Shown one piece after another: positions 53,351 through 60,328 of a stretch of 64,000 nucleotides of DNA; the stretch's first letter is position 1; every line of letters starts with the position of its first letter. The stretch lies in contig NZ_JAUCZH010000004.1 in assembly GCF_030373185.1 (NCBI RefSeq), positions 1-64,000 of the forward strand. The letters are read 5' to 3'. Below the pieces are notes generated by a model. It searched no databases. It had not been told where the DNA came from and worked only from the letters and a program-made list of their open reading frames with translations. The DNA is from Tabrizicola sp. (GTDB lineage: Bacteria > Pseudomonadota > Alphaproteobacteria > Rhodobacterales > Rhodobacteraceae). The position numbers and the translations under genes are program-made.

Positions 53351-56098
53351 CTACCGGCCCAGTGACCACCAACCCTTGCGTTTGGGCTTGGACGGGTCGT
53401 CGGACGCAGCCACATCGGCCACGGCGGCGGCTTCAGCAGGGTCTGGAGAGACAGTTTCAACCGTGGCCGCAAGCCCCGGGTCAAGGGCCAGCACAGGTGC
53501 CGGTGCCTCGGTTGCGGCCTTCGCTCGCGGCGCACGACTGCGTGCGGGCTTTGACGGAGCGGCTTCGGCCGATTTGACCTTGGGCGCGGGTTCTGCTGCA
53601 AGTTCTGCGGCCGGTTCCGTGACGGATTCCGTAACGGCGGCTTTGGCGCGCGATGCCCGCTTGCGAGGCGCAGGCTTTGCGGCTTCGGCCACCACTGCCA
53701 CCGCAGGTTCTGCTGCAACCTTCTCGTCCGATACAGGCACCGAGTCCGCCAACGCGACGGCCACAGGCTCAACAACCGCCTCTGCCGCAGCATCTGCCGC
53801 CGTTTCTGCCACCGCCTCAACGTCGCCCTTGCGGACACGGGGCTTGCGGGTGCGCTTGCGTGCCGAACCCTTCGGCTCAGCCTCGGCCAGGGGTTCGACG
53901 GTTTCAGCGGCAACGACTTCTTCGTCTTCGTCGTCACCGTCTTCGTCACCAGCAGCACCGTTCAGCGCCGCATCGCCTTCACGCGCGCCACCGCGCCGAC
54001 GCCGACGCCGACGCCGCTTTTTCTTGCCGGGCGCGCCATTGTCACCTTCGGCGGCCGCAGCGGAAGCCGGAGCGGAAGCCGCCTCGGCAGCTTCGTCCTC
54101 GTCTTCTTCGATCAGATCATCGACCAGATCGTCTTCCTCTTCCTCGGCCACCGGCGCGCCCATCAGGCCAGCATGGCCGGAAATCACCGGCGTCTCTGGC
54201 ACGACACGCAATGCGGTCTTGAACTTTTCGATCGAGTGATCGGGGCTGATCATCGTCGGATCAGCTTCGATCCGCACCGACATGCCGTAACGCGCCTCGA
54301 TCAGCGCGATATGTTCGCGCTTGTTGTTGATGAGGTAGTTGACGATGCCGATGGGTGCCTTCAGCAGCACCTCTTTCGACCGCTTGCGCGTGCCTTCCTC
54401 TTCCAGCGCGCGCAGAACCTGCAAGGCCATGCTGTCATCCGACCGGATCAGGCCGGTGCCATGGCAATGCGCGCACGGCTGGGTGGTGCTTTCCAGCATG
54501 CCGGGCCGCAAGCGCTGGCGGCTCATCTCCATCAGGCCAAAGCCCGAGATGCGGCCGACCTGAATTCGCGCGCGGTCGGTTTTCAGCTTGTCCTTCAGGC
54601 GCTTCTCGACGGCGGCGTTGTTCTTGCGCTCTTCCATGTCGATGAAGTCGATGACGATCAGCCCGGCAAGGTCGCGCAGGCGCAACTGACGTGCCACTTC
54701 CTCGGCGGCCTCAAGGTTGGTCTTGAGCGCGGTATCCTCGATCGAGCCTTCCTTGGTGGCCCGGCCAGAGTTAACGTCGATGGCGACCAAAGCCTCGGTC
54801 ACACCAATCACGATGTAGCCGCCGGATTTCAACTGCACCACAGGGTTGAACATGCCGCCCAGATAGCTTTCCACCTGATACTTGGCGAACAGCGGCACCG
54901 GATCGGAATAGCGTACCACCTGCTTGGCGTGGCTTGGCATGATCATGCGCATGAAATCCTTGGCGGTGCGGTAGCCGCCTTCGCCTTCGACCAGAACCTC
55001 GTCAATCTCGCGGCTGTACAGATCGCGGATCGACCGTTTGATCAGGTCGCCTTCCTCATAGATCTTGGCGGGCGCGATGGATTTCAGCGTCAGTTCGCGG
55101 ATCTGTTCCCACAGGCGCATCAGGTATTCGTAATCGCGCTTGATTTCTGGCTTGGTACGCTTTGCACCCGCCGTGCGGATGATCAGGCCGGCGCCTTCCG
55201 GCACCTCGATCTCGGACGCAATTTCCTTGAGCTTCTTGCGGTCGGCCACTTGGGTGATCTTGCGGGAAATCCCGCCGCCCCGCGCGGTGTTCGGCATCAG
55301 GACGCAGTAGCGCCCGGCCAGCGACAGATAGGTGGTCAGCGCCGCACCCTTGTTGCCGCGCTCTTCCTTCACGACCTGGACCAGCATGATCTGCCGGACC
55401 TTGACGACTTCCTGGATCTTGTAGCGCCGGGCGCGCGGACGGCGCGGGGCGGCGATTTCTTCGGCCACATCCTCTTCGGCGATGGATTCGATCTCGTCGT
55501 CGGTTTCCGATGCATGGTCCATCGCCCGGTAGGGACGATCCCCTTCCCCGGGCTCCTCAGAAGGCGAGGCGCTGTGGTCATGATCATTGCCGTCATCATG
55601 CGCAAGTGCGGCATCCGCTGCGGCGCCAGTCTCGACCGCGATACCGGTCTCGACGGCGATCTCGGTGTCATCTTCACCCAGATCGACCACATCCATGCCC
55701 GACGGCCCCTCGACCACGGCATCAGCGTTCTTGACCTTTTCAGCCCGCTCTTGCGACCGCGCCGGACGGCGGCGGGTGCGGCGGTTGTCTTCTTCTTCCT
55801 CGGCGCGGGCCATGGCCCGCTCTTCCTCGATCAGCGCCTTACGGTCAGCGACCGGGATCTGGTAATAGTCCGGATGAATTTCGGCAAAGGCCAGAAACCC
55901 GTGCCGATTGCCACCATACTCGACAAAAGCCGCCTGAAGCGAAGGCTCCACGCGGGTCACTTTGGCAAGATAGATGTTTCCGGCAATCTGTCGCTTGTTT
56001 ACGGTCTCGAAGTCGAACTCTTCAACCTTGTTTCCGTCTACCACCACAACCCGAGTTTCCTCGGCATGGGTGGCGTCGATCAGCATCTTTTTGGCCAT
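53351..56098 (-). CDS. rne: ribonuclease E/G
   Basis: MAKKMLIDATHAEETRVVVVDGNKVEEFDFE; GGYIVIGVTEALVAIDVNSGRATKEGSIEDTALKTNLEAAEEVARQLRLRDLAGLIVIDFIDM; acidic/Arg-rich tail. Confidence 0.97.
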   Translation of the reverse strand: MAKKMLIDATHAEETRVVVVDGNKVEEFDFETVNKRQIAGNIYLAKVTRVEPSLQAAFVEYGGNRHGFLAFAEIHPDYYQIPVADRKALIEEERAMARAEEEEDNRRTRRRPARSQERAEKVKNADAVVEGPSGMDVVDLGEDDTEIAVETGIAVETGAAADAALAHDDGNDHDHSASPSEEPGEGDRPYRAMDHASETDDEIESIAEEDVAEEIAAPRRPRARRYKIQEVVKVRQIMLVQVVKEERGNKGAALTTYLSLAGRYCVLMPNTARGGGISRKITQVADRKKLKEIASEIEVPEGAGLIIRTAGAKRTKPEIKRDYEYLMRLWEQIRELTLKSIAPAKIYEEGDLIKRSIRDLYSREIDEVLVEGEGGYRTAKDFMRMIMPSHAKQVVRYSDPVPLFAKYQVESYLGGMFNPVVQLKSGGYIVIGVTEALVAIDVNSGRATKEGSIEDTALKTNLEAAEEVARQLRLRDLAGLIVIDFIDMEERKNNAAVEKRLKDKLKTDRARIQVGRISGFGLMEMSRQRLRPGMLESTTQPCAHCHGTGLIRSDDSMALQVLRALEEEGTRKRSKEVLLKAPIGIVNYLINNKREHIALIEARYGMSVRIEADPTMISPDHSIEKFKTALRVVPETPVISGHAGLMGAPVAEEEEDDLVDDLIEEDEDEAAEAASAPASAAAAEGDNGAPGKKKRRRRRRRRGGAREGDAALNGAAGDEDGDDEDEEVVAAETVEPLAEAEPKGSARKRTRKPRVRKGDVEAVAETAADAAAEAVVEPVAVALADSVPVSDEKVAAEPAVAVVAEAAKPAPRKRASRAKAAVTESVTEPAAELAAEPAPKVKSAEAAPSKPARSRAPRAKAATEAPAPVLALDPGLAATVETVSPDPAEAAAVADVAASDDPSKPKRKGWWSLGR

Positions 56099-56513: not shown

Positions 56514-57842
56514 TCAGACGTAATCCCCTCGCGTCAGGCCGTATTTCGCCATCTTCTCGTTCAGGGTCCGGCGTGGCAGGCACAACTCCTCCATCACCGC
56601 GACAATTGACCCCTTGTGCCGCCGCATCGTGTTGTCGATCAGCATGCGCTCGAAGGATTCCACATAATCCTTCAGGGGCTTGCCCTCGGTGGTCAGTGCA
56701 GGTCCGGCCGCCTCGTTGTCGGCCATCAGCAGGCTGGCGATGGACCCGGACCCGCGCCGGTTCTGCAAGACGGCGCGTTCCGCGATGTTGACCAACTGGC
56801 GCACGTTGCCTGGCCAGGGCGCCTGCAACAGTTGCGCGGCTTCCTGTGCGGTCACCTGCGGGGCGTCGCAGCCGTATTCTTCGGCGAACTGCTCCGACAG
56901 ACGGGTGAACAGTTGCAGGATGTCTTCGCCCCTGGTCCGCAGCGGCGGCAACAGTATTGTCATCGCGCCCAGCCGGTAGAACAGGTCCGGCCGCAGCACG
57001 GCTTCCAACGTCGTATCCGGGGCATGCTGGTTGCAGATCGCGATGATGCGGGTTTCGGGTGGGGTGCCTTGCTCGTTGATCACCGTCAAGAGCCGTGCCT
57101 GAAGGGCGCCGGGCATCGCCTCGATATCCTCAAGGCACAGGGTTCCACCGCGCGCCTCTTCGATCAGAGGCAGGCTGCCGTCTTCGGCCGGACCGAACAG
57201 CCGGGCAGAAAGCTGGTCTTCGCCCCATGCCGCACACGACACCGCCACGAACTTCTTTGACGCGCGCGGCCCAACGGCGTGCAGCGCATGGGCCACAAGG
57301 GTCTTGCCTGTCCCCGTCTCGCCGTCGATCAGGACGTGGCTGTCAGCCTGCCCCAAATCAAGAATGTCCTCGCGCAAGCGGTCCATCGCGGGCGAAGATC
57401 CGATCAGCTTTTTCATGATGGTCGAGCCGTCAGACAACTCCTTGCGCAAAGCCCGGTTATCAAGCGTCATCCGCCGCGCCTGCGTCGCCTTCTTGGCAAG
57501 TTCGGTCATCCGGTCGGGGTTGAACGGCTTTTCCAGAAAGTCGAACGCCCCCACCCGCATCGCTTCCACCGCCATAGGCACATCACCGTGACCGGTGATC
57601 ATGATCACAGGCAGGCCCGAATCCTGCCCCATCAGGCGTTTCAGGAACGCCATCCCGTCCATGCCGGGCATCTTGATATCGCTGACGACCACGCCCTGAA
57701 ACTCTGGCCCGATCACCTTCAGCGCCTCTTCCGCCGAAGCGAAGGTCTCGGTGTCAAAGCCCGACAGCGCAAGCCACTGGCTGATCGATTGCCGCATGTC
57801 GGCCTCGTCATCGACGATTGCCACTTTCATTGCGCGGGCCAT
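56514..57842 (-). CDS. dctD: DctD-like response regulator with AAA+ and Fis-type HTH domains, lacking the GAFTGA motif
   Basis: Receiver VAIVDDEADMRQSISQWL; Walker A GETGTGKT; expected GAFTGA region reads LFGPAEDGSLPLIEEARGGTLCLEDIEAMP. Confidence 0.9.
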   Translation of the reverse strand: MARAMKVAIVDDEADMRQSISQWLALSGFDTETFASAEEALKVIGPEFQGVVVSDIKMPGMDGMAFLKRLMGQDSGLPVIMITGHGDVPMAVEAMRVGAFDFLEKPFNPDRMTELAKKATQARRMTLDNRALRKELSDGSTIMKKLIGSSPAMDRLREDILDLGQADSHVLIDGETGTGKTLVAHALHAVGPRASKKFVAVSCAAWGEDQLSARLFGPAEDGSLPLIEEARGGTLCLEDIEAMPGALQARLLTVINEQGTPPETRIIAICNQHAPDTTLEAVLRPDLFYRLGAMTILLPPLRTRGEDILQLFTRLSEQFAEEYGCDAPQVTAQEAAQLLQAPWPGNVRQLVNIAERAVLQNRRGSGSIASLLMADNEAAGPALTTEGKPLKDYVESFERMLIDNTMRRHKGSIVAVMEELCLPRRTLNEKMAKYGLTRGDYV

Positions 57843-57852
57843 CTGGACCTCT

Positions 57853-59613
57853 TCATTCTGCTGCTTCCTGATTTTTGCCGAGGATCGGCAACTGCATTTC
57901 AAACACCGCCCCACCGCCATCGCCGTTCCGGGCAGTCAACCTGCCGCCAAGGTCGGTCACGATGCCCGAGGAGATGGCAAGGCCAAGGCCCACGCCTTCG
58001 CCGGGTTTCTTGGTGGTGTAGAACGGCTCGAAAAGATTCTCGAGTTCGGTAATTCCATGGCCATTGTCGCGCACCGTAAGCATCGCCGTTTCGCCTGCTG
58101 ACAGCAGGATGTCGATCTGCGGAGCTTTCACGTCCTTGGTCGCGTCAAGCGCATTGCGCAAAAGGTTGATGATCACCTGTTCCAGCCGGATGCGGTCAGC
58201 CATGACCAGAACCGGCTGGCGCGGCATGCCTCGGCTGATCTTCACGACCCGGGCCTTCAACTGCGGCTCCATCATCGCAAGCGCCGAAGACACGCAGGCG
58301 CGCAGGTCAACCTCCTCGAAGGCCTCGCCGCCCTTGCGGGCATAGGATTTCAGTTGCCGGGTGATCGCGCCCATGCGTTCGATCAGATCGTCGATCCGCT
58401 GAAAGCTGGACAGGGCCTCTTCGGGCCGCTTGCGCTGAAGCAGAAGGCGGGCGCCGGCAAGATAAGTCTTCATCGCGGCAAGGGGCTGGTTCAATTCATG
58501 ACTGACCGCTGCCGACATTTCGCCAAGGGCCGCCAGCTTCGAGGACTGCGCCAGCGTCAATTCCGCCACTTCAAGATCCTTCTGCACCTTCTCACGCTCG
58601 GCAATCTCGCGCTGAAGGCGGGCGTTCAGCGCCCGAAGCTCTGCAGATTCCCGCTGAAAGCTTAGCGAGCGTGACCAGGCCCGCCGCGACAGGATGTAGA
58701 AGGTCAGCGCCATCAGGATGGCAAAGCCCATGATCTCCAGCGCCAGAATCCCGTTCACCTGTTCGCGGACCGATCCATAGGCGGTGAAGGTCTGGATCTT
58801 CCAGCCCCGGAAAGGAACCCGAGCCTCGGTCCGCATCACGGCCTCACCGCGGACATAGGCATCGGGCGGGTTCTGCGCCCAGTCGGCTGTGGCCCGCAAC
58901 GCCCGGGCAATGGCCGATGGCGGATCACGCAGCGCCAGCGCCTCGGCAACCGGCAGGCCGCGCCAGCGCGATTCCGTGGCAAGAAGCACTGTGCCTTCGC
59001 TGTCGGTCACCAGCACCGCATCCTGAAGGCCGGACCAGGCGCGTTCGTATTTCATCAGGTCAACCGAAACGACGATGACCCCCAAGGTCTTGCCCTCGGC
59101 CTGAAGTGACCGCGAATAGACAAAATCATACCCACCCGATTCGCGTTTGACGGCAGTGAAGATCGTCTCTTTCGTCCGTTGGGCATCGACGAAGTAGGTG
59201 TCGTTGCGGTTGTTGGTGCCAAGGATGTTGCGGTTGGTTGCACCCACGACGCGCCCGTCATTGCCCAGAAGCCGGATCGACGCGACGCCGATCTGCGCCT
59301 GAAGCGCGATGAGTTTCGCCGATGTGCGGGAGAAATTGCCTTCGCGCAGGGCCTGCACCAGTTCCGGGTCACGCGACAGCAAAAGCGGAACCACCGAAGT
59401 CCGCTGCAATTCGGCCATCAGGTTACCGGTGTAAAGCGCCAGCCGCACCTCTGCCCGGCTGCGGGTATCGGCGGTGTAGCGGTCAGTCAGCAACCGGTTC
59501 GATACAAGCACAACCCCGACGGCAAGCAGGACCAGAAGCCCGACCGCAAGCTTGACGCGCCAAGGCAAGCCCTGGGCGGATGCAGGTTGTTGAAGCGGGC
59601 CGGATCTTGTCAT
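57853..59613 (-). CDS. dctB: C4-dicarboxylate sensor histidine kinase DctB-like
   Basis: AAVSHELNQPLAAMKTYLAGARLLL; periplasmic double-PAS-like sensor between two TMs; start MTRSGPL. Confidence 0.92.
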   Translation of the reverse strand: MTRSGPLQQPASAQGLPWRVKLAVGLLVLLAVGVVLVSNRLLTDRYTADTRSRAEVRLALYTGNLMAELQRTSVVPLLLSRDPELVQALREGNFSRTSAKLIALQAQIGVASIRLLGNDGRVVGATNRNILGTNNRNDTYFVDAQRTKETIFTAVKRESGGYDFVYSRSLQAEGKTLGVIVVSVDLMKYERAWSGLQDAVLVTDSEGTVLLATESRWRGLPVAEALALRDPPSAIARALRATADWAQNPPDAYVRGEAVMRTEARVPFRGWKIQTFTAYGSVREQVNGILALEIMGFAILMALTFYILSRRAWSRSLSFQRESAELRALNARLQREIAEREKVQKDLEVAELTLAQSSKLAALGEMSAAVSHELNQPLAAMKTYLAGARLLLQRKRPEEALSSFQRIDDLIERMGAITRQLKSYARKGGEAFEEVDLRACVSSALAMMEPQLKARVVKISRGMPRQPVLVMADRIRLEQVIINLLRNALDATKDVKAPQIDILLSAGETAMLTVRDNGHGITELENLFEPFYTTKKPGEGVGLGLAISSGIVTDLGGRLTARNGDGGGAVFEMQLPILGKNQEAAE

Positions 59614-59659
59614 GACCAAAGACTAGGGCCGCCCCGGGCGCGCCTCAAGCCAAGGCATG

Positions 59660-60328
59660 TCAGGCCAGCGCCATCCCGCCCATCAGCGAGGCGAACAACG
59701 GGCGGCCATCTTCGCCCCCCAGCGCCGCCTCAACGGCGCGTTCGGGGTGGGGCATCATTCCCAGCACCCGGCGGTTTTCCGAAAGCACCCCGGCAATGTC
59801 GGCCATGCTGCCATTGGGGTTGTCGCAATAGGTGAAGGCGATGCGGTCATCGCCTTGCAAACGCGACAGGCCTTCGGCGTCGATGGTGTAGTTGCCGTCG
59901 TGATGAGCGATGGGAACGTGGATCGTCTGACCCGGCACATAAGCGGCCGTATAGGCGCTATCCGTGGTGGCGACCCGCAGCGCCACCGTCTTGCAGACGA
60001 ACTTCAGCCCTGCATTGCGCATCAAGACGCCGGGCAAGAGGCCCATTTCCGTAAGCACCTGAAAGCCGTTGCAGATTCCAAGGACATAGCCGCCCCGGTC
60101 GGCATGGGTGCGAATGGCGGTCGAGATCGGCGATTGGGCGGCAATGGCGCCGCAGCGCAGGTAGTCCCCGAAGGAAAACCCGCCCGGCACCCCGACCACA
60201 TCCACGCCCGTGGGCAGATCGGTATCCTTGTGCCAGACCCGCGCCACCTCAAACCCGGCGCTTTCAAAGGCGGTGGCAAGGTCACGGTCGCAGTTCGAGC
60301 CCGGGAAGGTGACGACGGCAGCTTTCAT
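59660..60328 (-). CDS. purQ: phosphoribosylformylglycinamidine synthase subunit PurQ
   Basis: [51 protein letters not shown]. Confidence 0.97.

Follow-up and report, generated by a model that had tools for sequence, protein, structure and literature searches.

A DctD-type response regulator of Rhodobacteraceae that lacks the sigma54-contacting loop

The regulator gene and its locus

We focused on a DctD/NtrC-type response regulator gene in a window of Tabrizicola sp. DNA, the window being the whole 64,000-nucleotide stretch analysed. The gene lies at positions 56514–57842 on the minus strand, as do all features of the locus given below. Its open reading frame starts with an ATG at 57842, has a stop codon ending at 56514 and encodes 442 amino acids. 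Pfam identifies Response_reg, Sigma54_activat (PF00158, 101 bits), AAA lid and Fis HTH domains. The regulator has the receiver, PF00158 AAA+ and Fis HTH architecture of a sigma54-dependent bEBP.

The receiver domain (residues 5–120; 57483–57830) carries the phosphoacceptor Asp55 at 57678–57680. Residues D11, D12, D55, the conserved Thr and K105 are unchanged across 136 orthologues. In the AAA+ domain, Walker A reads GETGTGKT (residues 174–181; 57300–57323) and the arginine fingers, R284 and R290, lie within LRPDLFYRL (56970–56996). Each of K180, R284, R290 and the sensor-II arginine is kept in 135 of the 136 orthologues, and the sensor-I asparagine in 129. The Fis-type HTH (residues 412–436; 56535–56609) belongs to the C-terminal domain, which is the most conserved. 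Pfam and residue conservation both agree with the initial annotation, in which the receiver, Walker A, R-finger region and HTH were described as intact.

Four parts of the AAA+ domain are altered. At the loop 1 site (LFGPAEDGSLPLIEEARGGTL, residues 215–235; 57138–57200) the GAFTGA loop is missing, and the stretch reads LFG-PAEDGSLPLIEEAR-GGTLCLEDIE. The spacing from LFG to GGTL is 14 residues, compared to 21 in canonical GAFTGA relatives. Hence, the loss reported in the initial annotation is real but comprises seven residues rather than about ten. A deletion in loop 2 had been missed; this site (residues 251–267; 57042–57092) is nine residues shorter than canonical, with a segment of 15 rather than 24 residues. 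Walker B, TLCLEDI (residues 234–240; 57123–57143), has E238-D239 replacing D-E, and the annotated change from DE to ED is correct. The fourth alteration concerns the glutamate switch, a pair described for PspF, where N64 is the partner residue (PMC4132715). Canonical relatives have Asn at this position and the regulator has Ser202, within VAVSC (residues 199–203; 57234–57248). The switch pair is S/D, instead of N/E.

A membrane histidine kinase gene (57853–59613; 586 aa), presumed to be cognate and encoding a DctB-like double Cache sensor, sits 10 nt upstream of the regulator gene. The two genes adjoin in this order in each of the 97 orthologue loci examined. Further upstream is purQ (59660–60328), which precedes the kinase in 92 of the 97 loci; rne (RNase E; 53351–56098) is the downstream neighbour in most relatives. 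The order purQ-kinase-regulator is kept in relatives as distant as 45% identity. The open-access literature, to which the search was confined, yielded no description of this purQ-linked system.

The window contains no dctPQM genes beside the regulator, as annotated. Across the 97 loci, tblastn searches of flanks up to about 5 kb with the TRAP proteins of this genome gave no match. The kinase sensor is similar to the DctB periplasmic domain (E 5e-8) and is weakly conserved among clade members. In DctB, the arginine of the RDYF motif has a carboxylate-binding role. The kinase has an NDTYF-type sequence aligned with RDYF, with Asp at the Arg position. Hence, two hallmarks of DctD systems, linked TRAP transporter genes and the RDYF arginine of the partner sensor, were not detected at this locus, and the name DctD describes ancestry rather than demonstrated function.

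A predicted sigma70-type promoter for the kinase-regulator pair (59620–59648) follows the purQ stop codon. It consists of TTGAGG (59648–59643), a 17-nt spacer and TAGTCT (59625–59620). The kinase ATG (59613) is 6 nt beyond the predicted −10 element, which suggests that the mRNA may be leaderless. The pattern matches 69 of 93 loci, 66 of them with exactly 17 nt, while shuffled sequences give a mean of 0.6 and a maximum of 3; this count is descriptive and not an independent test, since the pattern was first spotted by eye on the same sequences. A search for −24/−12 sites, allowing up to two mismatches, was uninformative about sigma54 control nearby (112 in the window and 91 expected; maximum of 111 in 100 shuffles). 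The sole exact match in the window is inside rne (54682–54696). We also considered the TRAP operons of this genome as targets. These were rejected; the best two (L202 and L203) adjoin LacI/GntR-type regulators and sugar-acid genes, as judged by eye from their names.

Fixation of the altered AAA+ domain and its ancestry

Orthologues were collected by a whole-genome search and a scan of named genomes, and deeper members were fetched separately. The sample is biased to close relatives, yet reaches down to 45% identity. An orthologue was found in 137 of the 150 Rhodobacteraceae genera sampled. A GAF[TSPA]GA-like motif is missing from all 136 distinct orthologues, each of which has a shortened loop 1. 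The absence of GAFTGA noted in the initial annotation is therefore a shared property, and this rules out that resequencing would restore the motif. Loop 2 spans 15 residues in 127 of the 136. At Walker B, 135 orthologues have E in place of the usual D; the following residue is D in 127, N in six, G in two and E in one. At the position aligned to PspF N64, 117 have S. Among GAFTGA relatives in other alphaproteobacteria, 10 of 11 have the switch N and all 11 have the Walker B DE. Mean pairwise identity is 0.81 for the receiver, 0.87 for the C-terminal HTH and 0.71 for the AAA+ core. We conclude that an absent GAFTGA loop, a shortened loop 2 and replacement of the Walker B DE and the N-E switch have become fixed in this core Rhodobacteraceae protein.

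Two orthologues stand apart. In G015 (L133), Walker A reads GERGAGRS (K to R), Walker B is K-N and the arginine fingers are lost; the receiver and HTH are still intact in this protein with a dead ATP site. In G049 (L132, 3001–4334), a single-contig genome, a frameshift lies between the AAA+ domain and the lid, and may be real or a sequencing error.

A maximum-likelihood tree groups the orthologues in a single clade (100/100) among GAFTGA DctD-like proteins, which places the regulator with DctD-type regulators. Two groups of Rhodobacteraceae DctD paralogues, B and C, form clades separate from the orthologues with 100% bootstrap. Loop 1 is absent from group B; group C, often TRAP-linked, has GAFPGA-type motifs. 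In contrast to the regulator, both groups mostly retain the Walker B DE and a full-length loop 2. Although the orthologues and group B are placed apart in the tree, the data are also compatible with one clade uniting them (p-AU 0.33), so we do not claim that each lost loop 1 independently. The paralogues L137–L149 have GAFPGA/GAFAGA-type motifs or no loop 1, and sigma54 contact is eroded in these proteins too.

AlphaFold2, supplied with 63 sequences, modelled the full receiver-AAA+-HTH chain with a mean pLDDT of 86.4 and a pTM of 0.54, at which the interdomain arrangement is unreliable. The best PDB matches of the model are Brucella NtrX, which is the nearest solved structure, and NtrC1. Comparison with the PspF AAA+ domain gave a target-normalised TM of about 0.8.

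Co-occurrence with rpoN

The patchy distribution of rpoN in Rhodobacterales has been described (PMC11999139). We called rpoN using PF04552 at E < 1e-10, discarding five weak matches (E 1e-4 to 1e-3). By this measure, 44 of the 150 sampled genera carry rpoN. The second RpoN domain, PF04963, has 41 carriers, all of which are within the 44. Orthologue and rpoN occur together in 37 genera, the orthologue alone in 100, rpoN alone in seven and neither in six. For genomes at least 95% complete, the corresponding counts are 34, 78, 6 and 4. Hence, 100 of the 137 genomes bearing an orthologue have no rpoN match above noise. Four of these are single-contig assemblies, including that with the frameshifted copy.

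The Tabrizicola genome does contain rpoN. It also encodes two activators with GSFTGA or GAFTGA, together with NtrC and NtrX, which lack the motif. The GSFTGA activator (L001, G000:C7:89870-93370) is beside an NAD-kinase-like gene and possibly corresponds to AprX of C. sphaeroides (PMC11999139). Six deep-branching orthologues from rpoN-bearing genomes also lack the loop. Hence, loop loss in this protein needed no earlier loss of rpoN. In eight rpoN-less genomes, 30 NtrC-family loci were fetched, and GAFTGA was not found in any of the 26 that were readable (25 distinct genes). One NtrC-family protein of an rpoN-less genome (L206, G142) has a full-length loop in which the motif has decayed to GAGVFAHD, perhaps a vestige left once rpoN had been lost.

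The strongest evidence for sigma54 independence is the presence of orthologues in 100 genomes without detectable rpoN. We conclude that the regulator very probably works independently of sigma54, which strongly supports the earlier suggestion that it probably does not remodel sigma54. Beyond the initial annotation, the change is clade-wide, extends to loop 2 and the glutamate switch, and is found in a genome that still has rpoN.

Candidate modes of action and related systems

NtrC-family regulators that work with sigma70 and lack GAFTGA are already known. R. capsulatus NtrC, to which the initial annotation aptly pointed, has no GAFTGA and works with sigma70; ATP binding is required but hydrolysis is not (PMC10274813). 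Caulobacter NtrC is a further GAFTGA-less precedent (PMC10274813). Like R. capsulatus NtrC and other Rhodobacterales NtrC proteins, including that of this genome (L005), the regulator has receiver, AAA+ and HTH domains without the GAFTGA loop. However, NtrC is a separate lineage, 31% identical to the regulator in this genome, which retains the Walker B DE and serves nitrogen control. NtrX (Brucella 5m7n-p; here L003) also lacks the GAFTGA loop and is the closest solved structure by sequence and fold. It differs in having a full-length loop 2, another partner kinase and a Walker B that starts with D in 13 of 15 cases. The closest canonical lineage in the tree is DctD (Sinorhizobium type; GAFTGA relatives such as L168), which shares the domain order and a partner kinase with a DctB-like Cache sensor. 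Compared to DctD, the regulator has no GAFTGA, a short loop 2, an ED Walker B and no adjacent TRAP genes, and its partner sensor is missing the RDYF arginine of DctB. HupR, TyrR, DhaR and VpsR are NtrC-family regulators reported to be sigma70-dependent or GAFTGA-defective (PMC3162934). These differ in lineage, domains and signals. SPO2630 and SPOA0237 of R. pomeroyi are TRAP-linked by name and were put aside as candidates for the regulator orthologue.

The regulator shares with sigma70-working GAFTGA-less NtrC-type proteins an absent loop and retained ATP-binding residues. Of the properties of sigma54-dependent bEBPs, it lacks the GAFTGA loop, the Walker B DE, the switch Asn and co-occurrence with rpoN. 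Hence, the elements by which such proteins engage and drive sigma54 have been lost or modified, and those that form the ATP interface are kept. Together with the R. capsulatus precedent, this favours ATP-gated oligomerisation with sigma70. We infer that the protein is probably a core two-component response regulator of Rhodobacteraceae, of DctD-type descent, that is driven by phosphorylation and acts as an ATP-gated oligomer with sigma70 polymerase. Briefly, the membrane kinase would phosphorylate Asp55. The phosphorylated receiver would then permit the AAA+ domains to pack into an oligomer via bound ATP and the arginine fingers. Fis-type HTHs would anchor the oligomer at a conserved DNA site, where it could recruit or block the housekeeping (sigma70-type) RNA polymerase by contact. 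No GAFTGA/loop 2 power stroke would be used. As neither a target promoter nor a binding site came to light, the sigma70 partnership is proposed by elimination and analogy.

It is less probable, though worth serious consideration, that the regulator, under control by phosphorylation, serves mostly to repress or to compete for DNA binding; the AAA+ domain would then be a structural dimer or oligomer scaffold, with ATP incidental. The HTH and receiver are conserved above the AAA+ core, and Caulobacter NtrC both represses and activates sigma70 promoters (PMC10274813). Moreover, G015 keeps its receiver and HTH with a dead ATP site; hence, ATP may be dispensable in some members. A scaffold would, however, have no need of the Walker A lysine, arginine fingers and sensor-II arginine that nearly all orthologues retain. 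We consider it unlikely that the regulator still hydrolyses ATP and remodels sigma70 polymerase via another surface. The E-D pair may be catalytic; PspF with the E108D change remains an activator, at reduced ATPase activity, and resembles wild type on duplex DNA (PMC4132715). Hence, ED is no proof of lost hydrolysis, and residual hydrolysis is conceivable. Hydrolysis has also been proposed as a requirement for Caulobacter NtrC (PMC10274813). Several features speak against such a motor. Nine of 136 orthologues have N, G or E as the second Walker B residue, Ser has mostly replaced the switch Asn, and the two loops responsible for the stroke are missing or truncated.

We regard it as highly improbable that the regulator works as a sigma54 activator through a different contact surface in genomes with rpoN such as this one. 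This genome has rpoN and two activators with the motif. In addition, Caulobacter NtrC without GAFTGA, when mutated in the HTH, raised some sigma54-dependent genes (PMC12421884). Hence, absence of the motif alone is no absolute criterion. However, genomes without detectable rpoN retain the protein with unchanged loops, and the motif is absent from every examined orthologue of rpoN-bearing genomes. A decaying pseudogene or sequence artefact has a negligible probability. The frameshifted G049 relative is the one case in its favour; the open frame, strong conservation and synteny over 137 genera refute it for the family.

Returning to the ATP-gated, sigma70-working oligomer, a broader scenario can be put forward tentatively. 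The NtrC family of Rhodobacteraceae, comprising this regulator, NtrC, NtrX and the DctD paralogues, may have been converted as a group from sigma54 motors to sigma70 regulators, before or alongside repeated rpoN loss. The purQ-linked system would then be the extreme case, an ATP-gated non-motor switch in which loops 1 and 2, Walker B and the glutamate switch have changed and the ATP-binding interface has been kept. For a core two-component system, the PF00158 model is misleading, as the regulator exceeds its cut-off and scores as a sigma54 activator. The orthologues provide a natural series for asking what becomes of a sigma54 AAA+ activator that can no longer make contact with sigma54, and whether transcription can be controlled through ATP binding alone. 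The rpoN-less genomes open sigma54 independence to direct testing.
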